A DNA stretch of 35,447 bases, from IMG/VR virus record IMGVR_UViG_3300042430_001461, positions 1 through 35,447 of that record; one strand, 5' to 3'. This DNA is from a virus. The notes under the pieces are model-generated. The model searched no databases. It had not been told where the DNA came from and was given only the letters and a program-made list of their open reading frames with translations. The position numbers and the translations under genes are program-made. This document shows, piece after piece, positions 951 to 35,447 of the stretch (its first letter is position 1; each line of letters begins with the position of its first letter).

Positions 951-1007
951 GCCGAACTACTCGCTCAAGCCGACGCCTAGCGGCGCGGCTTACCTCGGGC
1001 GTTAGGC
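951..1007. other. attC-like integron recombination site (best match)
   Basis: Read on the + strand, the element has outer 7-mers GCCGAAC (951-957) and GTTAGGC (1001-1007), complementary except at one base and close to the attC R''/R' consensus. The inner arms AAGCCGACGCC (967-977) and GGCGCGGCTT (982-991) pair fully except for one unpaired A in the left arm. This is the extrahelical-base signature of attC L''/L' boxes. The order and sequence resemble class 1 cassette attC sites such as that of aadA1 (from memory). GTTAGGC also supplies the TAA stop of the leftward gene 1002-1283, as is common for cassette genes. The resemblance is seen directly; whether an integrase uses it is unknown. Confidence 0.7.
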
Positions 1008-1283
1008 CTTCTTGAGTATCGCTACCTGTCGCTCCAGGCTCGCTATCTTCTCCGCTCGCTCTTGTTCGTTGAGCGGGATCGCCTCGCGCAGGAGGTTCAT
1101 GGCATTCCAGAGCGATTCGCGCAACGCCCCATCCTCGGCGGCGTCGTCAAACTGATTGTTGTCTCCGATGCGATAGCTGAGGCTGGATGCCACCGAGTCG
1201 ATGAGAGACATGGCTTCACGCAAGCTCTTCTCCCACTCCGGCACTCTTCCGCTACGCAATTCTGCACTGTAGCTGCTTCCCAT
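1002..1283 (-). CDS. Hypothetical protein between two attC-like elements
   Basis: 93 aa, ATG at 1283 with an AAAGGAG site at good spacing. The N-terminal part (MGSSYSAELRSGRVPEWEKS) is followed by helical, acidic segments. The C-terminal third (NEQERAEKIASLERQVAILKKA) looks like a short coiled coil. There is no recognised domain. Its stop codon lies in the GTTAGGC box of the element at 951-1007, and a second hairpin element lies immediately upstream at 1310-1373. It therefore occupies the position of a gene in a mobile cassette. Its direction is opposite to the polarity suggested by the extrahelical bases, which is a minority arrangement. Confidence 0.7.
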   Translation of the reverse strand: MGSSYSAELRSGRVPEWEKSLREAMSLIDSVASSLSYRIGDNNQFDDAAEDGALRESLWNAMNLLREAIPLNEQERAEKIASLERQVAILKKA

Positions 1284-1309
1284 CTTTTTCTCCTTTGTGA
1301 ATTAACCCG

Positions 1310-1373
1310 GCACAACCAGCGGATGAAGCGGACAGCGGAGCCGCCGCTTATCCTGCCCCTTTCTGGGTTCGGT
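1310..1373. other. Second, degenerate attC-like hairpin element
   Basis: The arms GGATGAAGCGG (1321-1331) and CCGCTTATCC (1344-1353) pair completely except for one unpaired G in the left arm, the same asymmetry as the first element. Outer boxes are weaker: GCACAAC at 1310-1316 and GTTCGGT at 1367-1373. The translated motif MKRTAEPPL is one I associate with chromosomal integron attC regions of Xanthomonas/Pseudomonas relatives (from memory). It lies between the start of gene 1002-1283 and the end of gene 1373-1780. On its own this would be weak evidence; it gains weight from the neighbouring element in the same orientation. Confidence 0.45.
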
Positions 1374-6162: not shown

Positions 6163-6342
6163 ATGGACGAAGAACTGACTAAGGCCCTGCACTCTGCGAC
6201 GTTTGCAACGCAAGAGCTACAGCAGGCACTGAAGACCGCCGACGCGGTGGCCGCGCTGGTTCTCCTGCCGATGATTGCAGACGCTGCCCGACTGGCGCAG
6301 CAGATCAGCGGGTTGATTCACGCGAGGGCTGACCGTGGCTGA
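6163..6342 (+). CDS. Hypothetical small helical protein
   Basis: 59 aa from the ATG at 6163, which has AAGGA at suitable distance. An ATG at 6157 overlapping the upstream stop would add two residues. The protein is helical (DEELTKALHSATFATQELQQ, then LKTADAVAALVLLPMIADAA). The middle is mildly hydrophobic but also amphipathic, so a membrane location is uncertain. It overlaps the methyltransferase start by 8 bases. Confidence 0.65.
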   Translation: MDEELTKALHSATFATQELQQALKTADAVAALVLLPMIADAARLAQQISGLIHARADRG

Positions 6343-7138
6343 GAAAGTGGTGATCGGCAACGCGGAACTGTGGCACGGGGACTGCCGCGAGGTGCTGCCG
6401 CTGCTGCCGACGATTGATGCCGTAGTGACCAGCCCGCCATACAACCAACTTGGCGACTTGCCAAAGAATGGCAGCGGATTATGGGAAAAATCGGCTTTCT
6501 TGCGCGCGTGGGAAAGCAATGGCTATGCGGACAAGTTGAGCGAGCCGGAATATCAGAAATGGCAGTGCGATCTGTTTGCAGAGATTGCAGCCAAGTGCAG
6601 CGAGAAAGCGAGCCTGTTCTACAACCATCAGTTGCGCTGGCGTGACGGCGTATGCCTGCACCCGGTTCAATGGTTTACGCCGGATGGCTGGCGCATGCGT
6701 TCCGAGATCATCTGGAACCGTGGTGGCGGGATGATGTTCAACGCCCGCATGTTTGTGCGGTTCGATGAGCGAATCCTGTGGTTCGTGCGCGGCGTTTCGT
6801 GGCATTGGAACCAATCAATGGTTGGGCACGGAACCATCTGGAACATTGCGCGAGAGCAGCAGCGGCAGGGAAAAGAACACCCCGTTGCATTCCCGGTTGA
6901 ACTGCCAGCCCGGTGCATTCTCGCAGCGACAGAGCCGGGGGCGTTGGTGCTTGACCCGTTCATGGGCAGCGGAACAACTGGCGTGGCGTGTGCCATGCAC
7001 GGACGCGCGTTCTGTGGCATTGAGCGCGAGCGCAAGTATTTCGACATCGCCTGCGAGCGCATCAGCCGCGCCCAGGCCCAGGGCACGCTTCTGTCGCCCG
7101 AAGAACCGCGCGAATGCGTGCAGGAGGGGCTGTTGTGA
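6335..7138 (+). CDS. DNA methyltransferase (N4-cytosine/N6-adenine type)
   Basis: 267 aa from GTG at 6335, with GAGGG upstream. Catalytic motif IV is TSPPYN (residues 32-37), and the AdoMet-binding motif I is DPFMGSGTT (207-215) followed by the GIERERKYFDIA block. The order IV, target region, I defines the beta class of amino-methyltransferases (PF01555). SPPY is common in N4-cytosine enzymes but also occurs in N6-adenine ones. There is no accompanying restriction enzyme, so it is probably a solitary phage enzyme that protects phage DNA from host restriction (inference). Confidence 0.9.
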   Translation: MAEKVVIGNAELWHGDCREVLPLLPTIDAVVTSPPYNQLGDLPKNGSGLWEKSAFLRAWESNGYADKLSEPEYQKWQCDLFAEIAAKCSEKASLFYNHQLRWRDGVCLHPVQWFTPDGWRMRSEIIWNRGGGMMFNARMFVRFDERILWFVRGVSWHWNQSMVGHGTIWNIAREQQRQGKEHPVAFPVELPARCILAATEPGALVLDPFMGSGTTGVACAMHGRAFCGIERERKYFDIACERISRAQAQGTLLSPEEPRECVQEGLL

Positions 7139-7726: not shown

Positions 7727-8676
7727 ACCGGGACGACATGGCCCGCTTGGCGTCGGTCGCAGACGCTGTGCGCAACGCGCAGGGCCGAACGGTCCCGGGC
7801 AACTGGGAACCGCCCAAGCACGCGCATCTGCTGCGCGCTCCGTCCGCGTTCGTTGACAACATCATTGCCAAGCTGGGCGACGACGGCACGAAAGGCGACC
7901 CCCTGCCGTGGCCGAAGACGGCCGGGAGGCTGCGGCTGCGTCCGTCGGAGATGACGGTCTGGGCCGGCAGCAACGGCAGCGCAAAGTCTACGATGCTCTC
8001 CGAGATCATGGTGGCGCTGGCGCACGCTGGCCGCCGCGTGGTCATCATGTCGCTCGAGATGCCGGCGTACAGCGTGGCAGCCAAAATGGCTATCCAAGCG
8101 CTGTGCAACCGCCACCCAGCGCGCTCCCGCGTCGAGGTGTGGGCGGATGAGGTCGGGGAGTCGATGGCGTTCTTGGACCTGACCGGCGACCTTGAGCCGG
8201 CCGAATGCATCCGACTCGCGCGGTACTGCGCGCACGAACTCGGCACGCAGCACCTAGTAATCGACAACCTGACGAAGATCGTCAGCGCCGACAACGAACA
8301 CGCTGAGCAGCAGCGGAAGTTTGTCGCGCAGCTCCACAGGACGGCGATCGACACCGGTATGCACGTTCACCTGGTCGCGCATACCCGCAAGCCGGCAGAC
8401 GAGGAGAAGCAGCCGCCGAGCCGCTACGAAGTGGCTGGGTCGCGCACGCTGGTCGATCAGCCAGACAACGTGGTGATGATCTGGCGTAATCGGGACAAAG
8501 AGCGGGCGCGCGAGGACGGCGATGTAGGCCGGGCCGGCGAGCCTGATCTGGTGCTGAACGTCGACAAGCAGCGGCACGCCGACTACACGGGCCGGATTGG
8601 TCTGTGGTTCGATCGGGCGGCGTATCGGTTGGTCGGAGACTACGCGGAGCGCTCGCAACCGATGGTGAAAAGCTGA
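7723..8676 (+). CDS. DnaB-like replicative helicase / RecA-fold ATPase
   Basis: 317 aa from GTG at 7723, overlapping the previous stop, with GAGGGGG upstream; an in-frame ATG at 7738 is an alternative. Walker A is GSNGSAKST (residues 82-90), with Ala in place of the usual second Gly before Lys. The SLEMP motif (~110-114) is typical of DnaB helicases. Walker B is HLVIDN with Asp181. HLVAHTRKP and the following SGR-like segment (VAGSRTLVDQPDNV) match DnaB C-terminal motifs. There is no DnaB N-terminal domain, as in RepA/DnaB-C-type phage ATPases. Its role is unwinding at the replication fork, with the neighbouring zinc-finger protein and replication protein as likely partners. Confidence 0.85.
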   Translation: MNRDDMARLASVADAVRNAQGRTVPGNWEPPKHAHLLRAPSAFVDNIIAKLGDDGTKGDPLPWPKTAGRLRLRPSEMTVWAGSNGSAKSTMLSEIMVALAHAGRRVVIMSLEMPAYSVAAKMAIQALCNRHPARSRVEVWADEVGESMAFLDLTGDLEPAECIRLARYCAHELGTQHLVIDNLTKIVSADNEHAEQQRKFVAQLHRTAIDTGMHVHLVAHTRKPADEEKQPPSRYEVAGSRTLVDQPDNVVMIWRNRDKERAREDGDVGRAGEPDLVLNVDKQRHADYTGRIGLWFDRAAYRLVGDYAERSQPMVKS

Positions 8677-27283: not shown

Positions 27284-30200
27284 GCGACGCCGCGGCTCGA
27301 AGTGGGCTCACGCTGATCGGTCAGTCTGCCGGGGCGGCTATCGGCGGACCAATCGGCGCCGCCGTCGGCGGCGCTATCGGTAACGCGGTAGGCTGGTGGT
27401 TATTCCCCGAGCAGATCACCGCCGAGGGGCCGCGCCTGTCCGAGCTGACGGTGCAGGCGAGCACCTACGGCGTGACCATCCCGGTCGTGTACGGCCAATG
27501 GAGATTGACCGGAAATATCATCTGGGCGGCGGACATCCGAGAGACGCGCCAAGAGCGTGATGCAGGCGGCAAGGGCGGCCCGCAGCAGACGCAGGTCTCT
27601 TACACCTACGATGCGAGTTTCGCCGTGGGCCTATGCGAGGGTCCAATCGCGGGCGTGCTGCGCATCTGGGCCGACTCGCGCTTGGTATATGACGTGAGCG
27701 CCACCGCAGACGCCGAGGCGGTGGCCGCCAGTATCAACGTGGGCGACGTGATCACCGTCTACACCGGCACGCAAACGCAAATGCCGGACCCAACCATTGA
27801 GGCCGCGCTCGGCGTAGGCAACGTGCCCGCCTATCGCGGCCTGGCCTACGTCGTATTCCGCGATTTTGCCCTCGGTGACTACGGCAACCGGATACCCAAT
27901 CTGTCTTTCGAGGTCATCGAGAACGGCGACCTGGAGCCCGGCTTTAGGGTGCTGGACGTGGCCGCGCCCACCGAGCCGCTGTACCGACTTAACGCCGCGC
28001 CACTCCGACAAGACCCGATCATCAGCACCTTTGGCGGCGGCATCATCCGCGTGCTGAGCTCGAGAAATATGGGGCAGACCCGGCTGTACGAGGTGACCGG
28101 CGCTTACATCGGCGCCACCTCAGCTTCCTACGGCGAGTCCAACCTGCCGCCGTTTGGCGTCCTCAATGACCCGCCGAACGGGTTTTATTGGGGTGGCTGG
28201 CAGCTCGGCGAGTCCGGTTACACGATCTTCAACCACTTCTCGCAGGACTCGCCCGAGCGCTTTCTGCGCATTGACAACGTCAGCGAGTCAATCCAGAGCC
28301 TCGAAACAGGTACGCCGATTCAAGGCCTGGAGTTGGCCGGTCTTGTCGCATGCGTTGACTGTCTGCACTACGTGGTTCTCACTACGTCAAATGTCCCGAC
28401 GGTGACCAACTGGTATCTGTTCCGGTGGAACGGCGTGGGGCCGGAGCTGGTGCGCAGCGGTACGGTCGAGGCCGTGAATGGCGAGGATTGGCTGACGTTC
28501 GGCGTCTCTCCGGTCAATCAATTCAGCGGCCACCGGGGAGCCTCCATGCTGGAGTCCGACCTCACGCACCTGTGGGTCTATCTCGGAGACGGTGATCTCG
28601 CGGTCTACAAGCTGGACCGCGACAACGTGATGCGCCGCGTGTTGCTGTTCGATGGCTCGACCGCCCGTCGGCCGCGCTTGGAGTTTGTTACCGCCGGCGT
28701 AGGGCTCAACGCCGACCGCGGGCTGTGCTGCGTGCTCGGCACGACCGAACTTGACGTCACCCGCATCTACATGTACAGCCGCCTGACCGGCGGCAGCACC
28801 GGAACGCGCACGGTCTCGCAGGTGATTAATGGCCTGTGTCAGCGTGCGGGGCTGACGGTCGGCCAACTCTCCTCGTCCACGTTAACTGACCCGGTCATCG
28901 GGTATGGCGTCAGTCAGCCGCAGACTGCGCGCTCGGCTATTGAAGCGCTTAGCCGCGTGTACCCGTTCACCGGCGTCGAGAGCGGCACGCAGTTGAGGTT
29001 TGCCGGCCGCAACAGCGCCGCGGTGGCGACCATCAACGCGGACGATCTGGGCGCCACGGCCGGCGATGATGCTGTCGATCTCGTAGTCTCCACGCGCGCG
29101 CAGGAAACCGACCTGCCGGCCCGTATGACACTACGCTACCCGGCCGTTGATGCAGACTATCAAGTCGGCGCGCAAAGCGCGCGCCGCATGATCACCGGCA
29201 GCGAGCAGGTGCTCGAGTTGGATATCCCGGTCGCCCTGACAGACCAGCGCGCGGCAGAGGCGGCGCAAGTGTTGCTGTCTGAGGCGTGGGTCGCCCGCAA
29301 CCAGCGTCAATTTGCGACCACGCGCAAGTGGGCCGCGCTGGAGCCGGGCGACGTGGTCAACCTGGCGCTGCCGCAGACCACTTACACCGTGCGCATTGTG
29401 CGCAAGAGCGAGGCTGGCGGACTGGTGCAGTGGGAGGCAGTTGACCATTCCAGCGCGGCGTACACAACGAGCGTAGTAGCGGGGCAGACTCCGCCCGGCG
29501 TGCCCGTAGGCCTGCCAGCCGTTACGCAGTGCGAGATCATGGATCTGCCGCCTCTGCGCGACAATGATGACGACGGTGGCGTGTACGCAGCGGTCGTCCC
29601 AATCAGTGGCCGCCGCTGGAACGGCGCGCTCATTGAGCGGCGGCCCATCAACGTCGCTACCTGGCAAGCAGTAGAGACCGTCTATTCGGGCGGTACACTC
29701 GGCTGCATGGTCACGGCGCTGCCGCCGTTCTCGGGCGGCAACAGGTGGGACCAGTCCAGCGAGGCGCAGGTCGAGATGCTATCCGGCGCGCTGTCCAGCG
29801 TAACAGAGCTGGCTGTGCTCAACGGCGCTAACGCCGCGCTGATCGGCGACGAGATTGTTCAGTTCCGCGAGGCAACGCTGCTCAGCGGCACGACCTACCG
29901 GCTACGCGGTTTTCTGCGTCAACGCCGCGCAACCACCGCAGAGGCGGCAACGCACACGGCCAACGAGCGATTTGTCCTGCTCGATGCTGCCAGCCTGCGG
30001 CGGATCAACGTGTCTCTGGGAGAGGTGGGCTACACGTTCGTCTACACGGCCGTCACGCTGGGGGGGCGGCGTGACCTAATGTACCGGCAGACCGTTAAAC
30101 ACACCGGCCGGGCGATCAGGCCCCTGAGCCCAGTGTTGCTTAACGCAGTGCGAGGCGCGGACGACAGGCTGCGTTTTACGTGGACCCGCCGCGCACGGAT

Positions 30201-31002
30201 TAATGCGGGCTGGAACGATTTTGCCGACGTGCCGCTCGATGAGCCAGATGAGCTCTATGACGTTGAGCTCGTTACTAACGACGTTCTCGCTCTCCGATTG
30301 CTGTATCTGCCCGACTGGGATCGCCGCGAGGTGGAGTGGACATTAGGCCAGCAGATCGCCGCGACTAACCGGCCGGTGCAGCAGGTGGTGCTGCGTGTGT
30401 GGCAGAAGAGCAATCGCGTCGGCCGGGGTGAGCTGGCCGAGGCGGTGGTCAGTGCGCCACTGATGCCGTTTATCCGCGACTGGAACGACAACCTGGTCAC
30501 CGCACAGACGGTCTTTGGACCCAGTGCCACGCACAGCGTTGTGTCCGGTGTTTTCCAGCTCACCGCACTCGGCAATGGTTGGAGCCGCCTGGATCAGCCG
30601 TACTCGGTGTCGGACTTCCAGCTCGAACTGGACGTTATCACCAGCGGGTCCGGGTTTGCGGGGGTCGTGTACCGCACGACGGGTTGGTCCGGCAGTGGCG
30701 GCATGTACGCTTACCTGGTGACCATTTTCAGCGCGGCCGGAGGGATCAACGTCACGCTCTACCGGGGCACCAACTCGGCCGCAGGGGGCGCCGATACGAC
30801 GGTGTCTCAGGTGTTCGTGCCGGGTCCGTCAACGGGCACATTTCGGCTCGCGGTCGCGGTCACCGGCAACACGCACCAGGTCAGCGTCAACGGCCTGCTG
30901 CGCATCAACGCCGTCGACAGCATTTTCCCGTCTGCAGGTCAATTCGGTCTTTATGCATTTGCCGCCACCATGCAATTCGACAATCTTCGCATCAACTACT
31001 AA
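27280..31002 (+). CDS. Large tail tip/host specificity protein (GTA gp15-like)
   Basis: 1240 aa from ATG 27280, overlapping the previous stop (ATGA). Residues 8-40 are Gly/Ala-rich and hydrophobic (SAGAAIGGPIGAAVGGAIG), followed by the typical tip domain (SELTVQASTYGVTIPVVYGQ). The central region includes the phage-tail_3/hub-like segment with RYPAVDADYQVGAQSARR and fibronectin-like or beta modules thereafter. The last ~165 residues form an apparently separate beta-sandwich (FQLELDVITSGSGFAGVVYR, TFRLAVAVTGNTHQVSVNGL) like LamG/concanavalin-type sugar-binding domains. The protein penetrates the envelope and probably recognises the receptor. Confidence 0.88.
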   Translation: MSDAAARSGLTLIGQSAGAAIGGPIGAAVGGAIGNAVGWWLFPEQITAEGPRLSELTVQASTYGVTIPVVYGQWRLTGNIIWAADIRETRQERDAGGKGGPQQTQVSYTYDASFAVGLCEGPIAGVLRIWADSRLVYDVSATADAEAVAASINVGDVITVYTGTQTQMPDPTIEAALGVGNVPAYRGLAYVVFRDFALGDYGNRIPNLSFEVIENGDLEPGFRVLDVAAPTEPLYRLNAAPLRQDPIISTFGGGIIRVLSSRNMGQTRLYEVTGAYIGATSASYGESNLPPFGVLNDPPNGFYWGGWQLGESGYTIFNHFSQDSPERFLRIDNVSESIQSLETGTPIQGLELAGLVACVDCLHYVVLTTSNVPTVTNWYLFRWNGVGPELVRSGTVEAVNGEDWLTFGVSPVNQFSGHRGASMLESDLTHLWVYLGDGDLAVYKLDRDNVMRRVLLFDGSTARRPRLEFVTAGVGLNADRGLCCVLGTTELDVTRIYMYSRLTGGSTGTRTVSQVINGLCQRAGLTVGQLSSSTLTDPVIGYGVSQPQTARSAIEALSRVYPFTGVESGTQLRFAGRNSAAVATINADDLGATAGDDAVDLVVSTRAQETDLPARMTLRYPAVDADYQVGAQSARRMITGSEQVLELDIPVALTDQRAAEAAQVLLSEAWVARNQRQFATTRKWAALEPGDVVNLALPQTTYTVRIVRKSEAGGLVQWEAVDHSSAAYTTSVVAGQTPPGVPVGLPAVTQCEIMDLPPLRDNDDDGGVYAAVVPISGRRWNGALIERRPINVATWQAVETVYSGGTLGCMVTALPPFSGGNRWDQSSEAQVEMLSGALSSVTELAVLNGANAALIGDEIVQFREATLLSGTTYRLRGFLRQRRATTAEAATHTANERFVLLDAASLRRINVSLGEVGYTFVYTAVTLGGRRDLMYRQTVKHTGRAIRPLSPVLLNAVRGADDRLRFTWTRRARINAGWNDFADVPLDEPDELYDVELVTNDVLALRLLYLPDWDRREVEWTLGQQIAATNRPVQQVVLRVWQKSNRVGRGELAEAVVSAPLMPFIRDWNDNLVTAQTVFGPSATHSVVSGVFQLTALGNGWSRLDQPYSVSDFQLELDVITSGSGFAGVVYRTTGWSGSGGMYAYLVTIFSAAGGINVTLYRGTNSAAGGADTTVSQVFVPGPSTGTFRLAVAVTGNTHQVSVNGLLRINAVDSIFPSAGQFGLYAFAATMQFDNLRINY

Positions 31003-33778: not shown

Positions 33779-34006
33779 CTATTTAACGATCAAATTCACA
33801 TCGGCGTTTGTGAGATCTTGCCAGCGGATATAGACCGTTGCGCCGCCGTCGCCTTGGTAGCACAGTCCTTCCAGATCGTCTTGAAGATTCCGGAACTCGT
33901 CGCTTGTTAGCTTTTGGCGGGTAGCTGGTGATTCGCGGCGTGCGAACTCACGAAGTGCTTGCTTGCGCGTGGCAGCGCCGGTTGTCGGTACGTTGTAGTA
34001 AGCCAT
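33779..34006 (-). CDS. Hypothetical small protein under duplicated promoter (copy 1)
   Basis: 75 aa, ATG at 34006 with GGAGC at seven bases. The first half is basic and helical (RKQALREFARRESPATRQKL, SDEFRNLQDDLEGLC) and the second has beta-like TVYIRWQDLTNADVNLIVK. No family is recognised. It is expressed from the promoter inside the 89-bp segment 34011-34099 and is probably cotranscribed with the HTH gene downstream. Confidence 0.65.
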   Translation of the reverse strand: MAYYNVPTTGAATRKQALREFARRESPATRQKLTSDEFRNLQDDLEGLCYQGDGGATVYIRWQDLTNADVNLIVK

Positions 34007-34010
34007 TTTT

Positions 34011-34099
34011 TGCTCCAGCCCCTGCTCCCGAGGCGCGGTGGACGCGTCGCATCCATGAACCGAATACTACACGCTTTGCGTGGCCTGTCAAGCGGAGAT
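34011..34099. repeat. 89-bp promoter-leader repeat, copy 1
   Basis: It matches 34355-34443 with three mismatches. It carries a complete leftward promoter, a 5' leader with a small hairpin, and the ribosome-binding region of the gene ending at 33779. Conservation extends over non-coding sequence, so it is under selection or recently duplicated. Confidence 0.95.
34064..34091 (-). promoter_or_regulatory. Leftward promoter in repeat copy 1
   Basis: On the - strand, -35 TTGACA (34086-34091) and -10 TAGTAT (34064-34069) are separated by 16 bases. The spacer contains the palindrome CACGC-AAA-GCGTG, an operator candidate between -35 and -10. The start codon lies about 58 bases from the -10. Confidence 0.75.
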
Positions 34100-34104
34100 G
34101 CCCG

Positions 34105-34350
34105 TTATCGCTGGCGCACGCGCCAGTCAATCTGCTGCACGGCAGCCTCAATCTCAGGCAGATCGCTCGCGGGGATCATCCGCGTCAAGATCGTTTCGCC
34201 GTCTGCCCCAACTTCGCGCGCGGCGCTGCTGAACGGGACGGCAAGCACGCCCTTGTGCAGAGTTTCGCCACGCTCGACGATCAGCTGAACCTGTGTGTAT
34301 TCGCGGCCGGTGCGGTCCGTCTTCGTGACGCCGGTTTTTTCTAGTCTCAT
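34105..34350 (-). CDS. Hypothetical small protein under duplicated promoter (copy 2)
   Basis: 81 aa, ATG at 34350 with GGAGC at seven bases. It is beta-like in the first half (REYTQVQLIVERGETLHKGV, then LAVPFSSAAREVG) and helical at the C-terminus (ASDLPEIEAAVQQIDWRVRQ). No family is recognised. It lies first in the leftward island, with its own 89-bp promoter segment upstream. Early expression is likely since the promoter needs no late factor by appearance (inference). Confidence 0.65.
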   Translation of the reverse strand: MRLEKTGVTKTDRTGREYTQVQLIVERGETLHKGVLAVPFSSAAREVGADGETILTRMIPASDLPEIEAAVQQIDWRVRQR

Positions 34351-34354
34351 TCTG

Positions 34355-34443
34355 TGCTCCAGCCCCTGATCCCGAGGCGCGGTGGACGCGGCGCGTCCAT
34401 GAACCGAATACTACACGCTTTGCGTGGCCTGTCAAGCGGAGAT
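34355..34443. repeat. 89-bp promoter-leader repeat, copy 2
   Basis: It matches 34011-34099 at 86 of 89 positions. Two of the differences fall in the GGACGCG/CGCGTCC leader hairpin, where the first copy still allows pairing through a G-U pair. It drives the gene 34105-34350. Confidence 0.95.
34408..34435 (-). promoter_or_regulatory. Leftward promoter in repeat copy 2
   Basis: -35 TTGACA (34430-34435) and -10 TAGTAT (34408-34413), 16-base spacer with the palindrome CACGCAAAGCGTG, identical to copy 1. Confidence 0.75.
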
Positions 34444-34449
34444 TTAGCC

Positions 34450-34563
34450 ATGACGAAAAAACAACACGTCTACCGTTACCGTAGCGCCATCACCGGCCGC
34501 TGGGTCACCCCGGACTACGCCCGCCGCTACCCGCGCCGCACCGTCCGTGAGCGTGTGCGATGA
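34450..34563 (+). CDS. Short conserved phage protein (37 aa)
   Basis: 37 aa, ATG at 34450 with GGAG about 10 bases upstream. The sequence includes HVYRYRSAITGRWVTPDYAR and RRTVRERV. I recall the YRSAITGRFVT...A..HP.TTVRE pattern as a very common short protein of phages, of unknown function. It overlaps the spanin start (ATGA). Confidence 0.8.
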   Translation: MTKKQHVYRYRSAITGRWVTPDYARRYPRRTVRERVR

Positions 34564-34937
34564 CGCTCGGCATTCAGCTGGCCGCCGCCGCGGCCGCGCT
34601 GGCCGTTGCGTTTGGGGCCGGCTGGCAGATCAACGGCTGGCGCCTTGAGGCTGGGGAGCAAGATCGCCTCGAGAAGGCCATGCAAGCGCGCGAGGCGGGC
34701 TTGGAGCGCGTTGCCGGCGTGTCTGCTGCCTACCAGCAAGTGGCGGCTGAACTGCGCCGACTGGACGCTGTAAATCGCGTGGAGACAATCCGTGAAACGA
34801 ATCGCGTGGAGTATCGCTGTCCTGTGCCTGAGTCTGCTCAACGGCTGCTCGACGACGCCGTTAACGCCGCAAACAGTGCGGCCACAGGCCGACCTGCTGC
34901 AACCGTGCCCGCTGATCGCCAGCCGCCCCCTAGCTGA
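34560..34937 (+). CDS. Rz: Inner-membrane spanin (Rz-like)
   Basis: 125 aa, ATG at 34560 overlapping the previous stop (ATGA). Residues ~5-25 (IQLAAAAAALAVAFGAGWQI) form the single membrane anchor. A periplasmic coiled coil follows (EAGEQDRLEKAMQAREAGLE). The NRVEYRCPVPESAQRLLDDA motif is typical of Rz proteins of betaproteobacterial/pseudomonad phages. It works with Rz1 to fuse inner and outer membranes in the last step of lysis. Confidence 0.88.
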   Translation: MTLGIQLAAAAAALAVAFGAGWQINGWRLEAGEQDRLEKAMQAREAGLERVAGVSAAYQQVAAELRRLDAVNRVETIRETNRVEYRCPVPESAQRLLDDAVNAANSAATGRPAATVPADRQPPPS

Positions 34938-35031
34938 CCTGGGCGAGCTGCTGTTGTGGACGCGCGATCTGGTCGCGCAGTACGGCGAGTGCGCCGCCCG
35001 CCAGCGCGCGTTAGCCGATGCGGTCAGATAG
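34792..35031 (+). CDS. Rz1: Outer-membrane spanin lipoprotein (Rz1-like)
   Basis: 79 aa, ATG at 34792, in a different frame and overlapping the end of Rz by 146 bases, the classical Rz/Rz1 arrangement. The signal peptide MKRIAWSIAVLCLSLLNGC ends in a lipobox with Cys19 as the lipidated residue. The mature protein has proline and Leu-rich segments (PLTPQTVRPQADLLQPCPLI). It is anchored in the outer membrane and pairs with Rz. Confidence 0.9.
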   Translation: MKRIAWSIAVLCLSLLNGCSTTPLTPQTVRPQADLLQPCPLIASRPLADLGELLLWTRDLVAQYGECAARQRALADAVR

Positions 35032-35042
35032 CTGGGGTTGCT

Positions 35043-35060
35043 GCCTAAATTAAGTTAGGC
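35043..35060. terminator. Small hairpin at convergent junction after Rz1
   Basis: GCCTAA-ATTAAG-TTAGGC is a perfect 6-bp stem between the Rz1 stop and the end of the leftward gene 35055-35342. No T-run follows on either strand. It may be a weak bidirectional terminator. Confidence 0.35.
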
Positions 35061-35342
35061 ATCCTTCGGCGAGAAGACGCACTTCCACTCCACAACATCG
35101 TGATCCACCCACCACGCCTCTCCGAATGCGTTGTGGTGGTCTGGCAGCTTGTGGCAGTCGTCGCCCTGTACTTGCAGCACCACGCTTCGGCCCGTCTTGC
35201 AGGCCCAGGCCATCGCTGCTTGTAGCGTCGTGAAACCGCGCACCGGGGCAATGATCCGACCGCTTGCGCGGTAGCGCTGCGCCTTCTTCGGCGTGGTGGC
35301 GTGATACAGCAGCATCTCGCGCTTCGTAAGCGTTTCACTCAT
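35055..35342 (-). CDS. Conserved phage protein, ADP-ribosyltransferase-like start motif
   Basis: 95 aa, ATG at 35342 (base 22 in the first copy of the overlap) with GGAGG upstream, overlapping the Ala/Trp gene stop by 8 bases. The pattern MLLYHATTPKKAQRYRASGR, then IIAPVRGFTTLQAAMAWACK, KLPDHHNAFGEAWWVD and VVEWKCVFS is one I recall from many phages. The YHATTP...A..YRASG part resembles the start of ADP-ribosyltransferase/KptA-type folds, but the family is not characterised, and this is only an idea. It is the last gene of the leftward early operon across the circle. Confidence 0.75.
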   Translation of the reverse strand: MSETLTKREMLLYHATTPKKAQRYRASGRIIAPVRGFTTLQAAMAWACKTGRSVVLQVQGDDCHKLPDHHNAFGEAWWVDHDVVEWKCVFSPKDA

Positions 35343-35447
35343 TTTCGACCTCCAAGCAAATCTCCCTAAGTTTGTCTCCTTTCTGCTTACGTGCGGCGGC
35401 CCATGCGGCGCCCCATGCGGCGTCCTCTGCGGCCCCTTCGGCGGCCC
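35321..35447. repeat. 127-bp terminal direct repeat, copy 2
   Basis: Identical to bases 1-127. It contains the start of gene 35055-35342 and a truncated second copy (35335-35447) of the 3' end of the Ala/Trp-repeat gene. That fragment should not be counted as a separate gene. Confidence 0.95.

Follow-up and report, generated by a model that had tools for sequence, protein, structure and literature searches.

Integrons are the bacterial gene-capture system behind much antibiotic resistance, and the locus described here raises the question of why a phage genome should carry what look like integron attC sites around small genes, and whether these are remnants of a capture or parts of a system by which phages exchange genes. 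The stretch of DNA that we analysed, hereafter the window, is the whole 35,447-nucleotide IMG/VR record IMGVR_UViG_3300042430_001461. Since its first 127 bases (1-127) recur identically at 35321-35447, the genome is probably complete at about 35.3 kb, and the first cassette spans both ends of the record. The phage encodes a gpA-type terminase and a lambda-type portal, and the relatives with which we compared it (L and G numbers below) are metagenome contigs throughout, several of them short. The features on which our argument draws are as follows:

34560-35031, + strand: Rz/Rz1 spanin genes (34560-34937 and 34792-35031), flanking the landing site
35043-35060, + strand: attI1-like landing site A, GCCTAAATTAAG|TTAGGC, directly after Rz1; inferred crossover G35054/T35055
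35055-35447, + strand: cassette 1, first part; G|TTAGGC at both ends of the cassette, which is swapped as a block in L090
35055-35342, - strand: 95-aa gene, its TAA stop supplied by the R box; also at site B of L267/L268 and in the arrays of L269 and L270
1-1001, + strand: cassette 1, second part, ending with the attC
15-620, - strand: Ala/Trp-rich repeat gene (phrog_18326) in cassette 1; start codon at 620 chosen
689-925, - strand: 78-aa gene in cassette 1
951-1007, + strand: attC site (element 1); R'' 951-957, R' 1001-1007, inferred cleavage G1001|T1002
1002-1283, - strand: 93-aa gene of cassette 2, its TAA stop supplied by the R' box
1310-1373, + strand: attC-like element (element 2), at best decayed, closing cassette 2; inner arms only; also in L090
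1373-1780, - strand: 135-aa gene outside the array, common to L090
9640-9681, - strand: location of site B, a second landing site, which holds an array in L003, L267 and L268; joint CTTGCAG|TTAGGC

The first-pass annotation had read 951-1007 as an attC of class 1 type with the outer boxes GCCGAAC and GTTAGGC, and comparison at the sequence level confirms an attC-type site there. On the + strand the element runs GCCGAAC-TACTCGC-TCAAGCCGACGCC-TAGC-GGCGCGGCTTA-CCTCGGGC-GTTAGGC; its R' box fits GTTRRRY exactly, and its R'' box is one base off RYYYAAC. We built a covariance model from 16 attC, 4 of class 1 cassettes and 12 of other phages, leaving out this phage and its near relative L002. The + strand of the element matched it strongly, at 68.3 bits (E 2.3e-15), against 13.8 bits for the - strand, and this polarity is carried by paired inner arms and extrahelical bases. 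The pairs of the model covary, with both sides changed in 8 of 18, and the covariation score was reached by none of 500 shuffles and also exceeded that of slid controls. In a BLASTN search, plasmid attC from aadA/aadB/aacA cassettes came closest (E down to about 6e-6 in the matches listed), and 493 records covered at least 80% of the query. The DNA folding energy does not stand out (z -0.7 to -0.8), so the assignment depends on the sequence and on covarying pairs rather than on how stable the fold is. No Rfam family reached its gathering score anywhere in the window, and a model made from class 1 attC only was dropped because their long loops misaligned.

Chance resemblance is ruled out for element 1 (E 2e-15), but not for element 2. 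The proposal that 1310-1373 is a second attC holds for the inner arms, which keep the extrahelical A, but not for the outer boxes, which are poor. The covariance model matched it partially, over the inner arms only, at 11.8 bits, with an E of 0.79 for the whole window and of about 0.005 if rescaled, by our own scaling, to the expected 400 bases and strand. We therefore regard it as a decayed attC at best.

The gene between the two elements (1002-1283, - strand) does take its TAA stop from GTTAGGC, as had been noticed, and genes throughout this region run leftward, antisense to the attC. Cassette 1 comprises 35055-35320 plus 1-1001, 1267 bases in all, and holds three genes with a single attC; either some sites are gone, or the unit is not a simple one. 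The GTTAGGC that stops its 95-aa gene (35054-35060) lies outside any attC, as part of GCCTAAATTAAGTTAGGC directly after Rz1. This sequence, which the first-pass annotation had overlooked, resembles the attI1 core GCCCTAAAACAAAGTTAGGC (L072 served for comparison), a likeness of sequence that spans only about 18 bases (35043-35060) and has no intI alongside. Several smaller observations belong to the same neighbourhood. The product of 15-620 has alanine/tryptophan-rich repeats at its end, and its DNA is similar to gp36 of Burkholderia phage Bcep176; a 67-base leader (617-683) recurs ahead of another gene in L090 (94%), forming a shared upstream segment; and a 96-base repeat, about 95% identical at 34004-34099 and 34348-34443, precedes two small genes that run leftward close to the lysis genes, and is also present in relatives.

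If the sequence after Rz1 acts as a landing site, relatives should differ exactly there. Searching viral contigs, we found six others that share the Rz1-end flank. Contig L239 has the allele of the window and L242 has lost site A; the window, L240, L090, L241 and L243 represent five distinct alleles, constant up to the G and variable beyond it, with five different continuations after AAATTAAG and an R box of TTAGGC or TTGGGC. Constancy to the left of the G and variation to its right, including the rest of the R box, is as predicted for integron integrase crossover at G|TT. A gain is seen in L240, whose sample number is the same as that of L239: 803 extra bases (7741-8543) follow AAATTAAG and make up two complete cassettes ahead of the first cassette of the window. 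Each has its own attC (63.4 and 60.7 bits) and its own antisense gene, one of them for a P-loop ATPase (AAA_33, phrog_2071), and the neighbours are kept with nothing lost. A replacement is seen in L090, the whole contig of L002, which is 92-98% identical to the window in shared DNA. It matches the window up to GTTAGGC 35054-35060, continues with a different 139-aa gene and a different attC (47.8 bits), and rejoins at GCGTTAGGC, ahead of the 93-aa gene, so that a cassette of about 0.47 kb stands in place of the 1.27-kb first cassette, with G|TTAGGC at both joints. Units bounded by G|TTRRRY, closed by an attC and exchanged as a block are thus present on this phage, and the idea of an integron gene cassette gains support both from the strong attC match and from the break of a close homologous phage exactly at a cassette boundary. 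The original reading, a gene cassette carried by a phage, stands in that respect; the unit that varies, however, is the cassette to the left of element 1, from 35055 via the record ends to 1001. Together, the alleles suggest that one phage site has recently received several insertions independently.

Could ordinary phage mosaicism have produced the same alleles? In this alternative the blocks would be exchanged, with no integrase, by homologous or illegitimate recombination between short repeated sequences (GTTAGGC or the attC arms), and the hairpins would be no more than shared breakpoints. Such routes were proposed for phage attC clusters by Qi et al. 2023 (PMC9892861), further blocks vary between these relatives as well, and a PF00589 search found no tyrosine recombinase in the window or 7 relatives. 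However, the attC of L090 and of the window differ along their length and have only the R' end in common. L241 and L243, moreover, retain AAATTAAG and continue with TTGGGC and other sequence, which places their break inside the 7-base box, at the IntI cleavage point; and repeat-mediated exchange sits poorly with the gain of two whole cassettes between intact neighbours in L240. We therefore consider mosaicism of this kind unlikely, and we favor integrase-type insertion at site A.

A second place in the genome shows a similar arrangement in relatives. L003, which is 96% identical to the window across the terminase region, carries an attC array at site B, and L267 and L268 have the 95-aa gene there (98.9% DNA identity), so that this gene has a G|TTAGGC joint at both A and B. 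The joint in L267/L268 is CTTGCAG|TTAGGCATCC, with an attC beside it, and precedes a putative VRR-NUC-like gene (L268 and L243 are one contig by name). Neither the window nor L090 has an array at site B, and since the far side of the array is unmatched in the window, this is not a clean empty site. When we searched upstream of all arrays for an attI1-style motif, it matched only in L245 and missed the core of the window by one base, which indicates that attI-like sites are not uniform. In L245 (4370-4420) the first cassette abuts GCCCTAGATTGC|GTTAGGC (- strand), a sequence still closer to attI1.

We then considered how far this arrangement extends beyond one group of close relatives. The attC core was found in 17 further viral contigs, with more than 70 attC in total and arrays of up to about a dozen. 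The contigs with arrays include unrelated phages: MuA/MuB-like proteins occur with a portal in G003 and a different portal with a major head protein in G007, G008 has a third portal, and G002 and G012 carry terminases. Related cassette genes are shared among contigs. A 94-aa gene recurs in G007, G011 and G012, a methylase gene occurs in both G005 and G007, the kinase gene of L240 has a 90% counterpart in the L245 array, and the 95-aa gene recurs in the arrays of L269 and L270. The window's own DNA methylase (6335-7138) is similar in DNA at both ends, with a different middle, to methylase genes of G007 (L061) and L269 that lie between attC sites.

The opposite direction of the cassette gene had been flagged as uncommon, and within this phage group it proves to be the rule. 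Among phage sites at which a gene ends at the attC edge, 41 genes were antisense and 2 sense, as scored by a codon model that replaced a plain ORF-length test because GC-rich DNA yields long false ORFs. Class 1 plasmid controls gave 8 sense and 0 antisense, and 52 attC of Gammaproteobacteria in GTDB gave 26 sense and 1 antisense (phage versus GTDB, Fisher p about 9e-16, which is overstated because the sites of one array are counted as independent). Genes that run in the direction of their attC, the usual though not absolute state of cassettes, are thus found neither in the window nor as the norm of its group. In TJE1, a published phage, the genes are sense to the attC, so the inversion marks this phage group and not every phage. 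At two attC sites (L055 2899-2993 and L064 5590-5684) the long loop contains what may be the ribosome-binding site and start codon of the antisense cassette gene.

These data also bear on the alternative that a piece of a host chromosomal integron was taken up once and is now decaying, with no further exchange. The nearest DNA matches are indeed bacterial attC, element 2 has a decayed appearance, as does the first cassette with its three genes, and known Vibrio phages hold captured host integron pieces. Yet bacterial cassettes are sense and the phage ones inverted, entire cassettes distinguish the alleles within one phage group, cassette genes are common to phages of different type, and the exact phage attC core occurs in none of 84,980 bacterial species genomes (GTDB). 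Passive capture is accordingly improbable in our view. That the hairpins are simply transcription terminators or mRNA stabilisers with no present role in recombination, a role that would not exclude cassette exchange, fits their position between genes in one orientation and the weak terminator activity suggested for attC in the literature, but is highly improbable as the explanation, since R boxes, extrahelical bases and G|TT joints would not be needed and the alleles swap exactly at the box.

Rather than a decaying capture, then, we very probably have an integron-type platform in which IntI supplied in trans adds cassettes at the Rz1 landing site and the inverted genes are read by a phage transcript. 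A TIGR02249 search of the window found no integron integrase, and because the genome has no tyrosine recombinase at all, IntI presumably acts in trans, from the host or from a co-infecting phage. One candidate source is a Mu-like phage such as G003, the only contig with a complete intI, whose product matches TIGR02249 at 435 bits (cut-off 265) and whose gene adjoins its array. There (IMGVR_UViG_3300047678_000840, 28486-30975, in L095) the integrase gene lies by three attC with antisense genes, an array that sits at the end of an apparent early operon. A truncated intI with the N-terminal SAM-like domain only (L103 18372-18734, in G007) heads an array of nine attC, in the same relative place as in G003. 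Among the matches listed, a search of GTDB genomes for IntI gave only weak and distant ones (26-38% identity) that resemble ordinary Xer-type recombinases.

In the mechanism that we propose, the phage would keep an attI-like landing site after its lysis genes, followed by attC cassettes, and no integrase of its own. IntI would take the folded bottom strand of the attC on a circular cassette and recombine it with the landing site at G|TT, and new cassettes would enter beside Rz1; here recombination is read from its presumed products, the G|TTRGGC joints. A leftward phage transcript, starting from the other end and ending near Rz1, could read the cassette genes precisely because they are antisense to the attC, and no integron promoter would be needed. 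Each joint would also close a reading frame, as the R' box provides the stop codon. Contrary to the order in a class 1 integron, the newest cassettes would then be the most promoter-distal.

Comparison with known systems places this arrangement among integrons but outside their described forms. A class 1 integron (intI1, attI1, aadA/aadB cassettes) shares the attC type, extrahelical bases, polarity, attI1-like core and entry at G|TTRRRY; in contrast, the phage lacks intI and so does not hold a complete integron. It also has no known Pc promoter, its cassette genes are inverted, and we saw no resistance genes in this phage setting. Sedentary chromosomal integrons of Gammaproteobacteria similarly hold cassette arrays with small genes of no assigned function, but their genes are sense by 26:1 and the exact phage attC core was not found in them. 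Integron cassettes also insert into bacterial genomes at sites called attG, likewise entering at a point of G|TT type away from any integron. The phage site, in contrast, is reused, holds arrays and has an attI1-like inverse core at its flank. The name attG is from PMC12901181.

Phage-borne attC clusters are themselves already known: among 10,705 phage genomes, 21 were reported to contain an integron or a cluster of attC, and IntI1 was active on 5 of 6 phage attC tested (Qi et al. 2023, PMC9892861). The phage CALINs of that study, attC clusters without an integron integrase, resemble ours in holding cassettes without intI, with methyltransferases among them. If a CALIN is defined by two or more attC within a few kb and no intI, L240 and other phage contigs contain one; the window has one strong site and one that is decayed at best. 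The phages studied here differ from the published CALINs in that their genes are antisense, compared with sense in TJE1, the one published case that we scored, and in the attI-like site with allelic exchange among close relatives. Phage cassettes that are consistently inverted, an attI-like site on a phage with allelic insertion or exchange, and a Mu-like phage with IntI were all absent from the literature that we searched; as preprints and many subscription papers fell outside the search, the claim to novelty is provisional.

Given that close relatives differ by whole cassettes at the recombination point, these phages appear to trade genes in this way. More broadly, it is somewhat likely that several unrelated environmental phage groups have their own shared pool of inverted cassettes. 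Uptake would occur at attI-like sites carried by the phages and would rely on an integrase acting in trans or, for the Mu-like phage, on one that it encodes itself; the whole would be an integron in phage form rather than a fragment of a bacterial one. Should phages indeed maintain their own landing sites and cassette pool, some of their accessory-gene mosaicism would have a defined mechanism, one that is directly testable with the alleles described here. Cassettes would in that case gain a route between hosts, and the inversion would amount to a natural experiment on why cassette direction matters.
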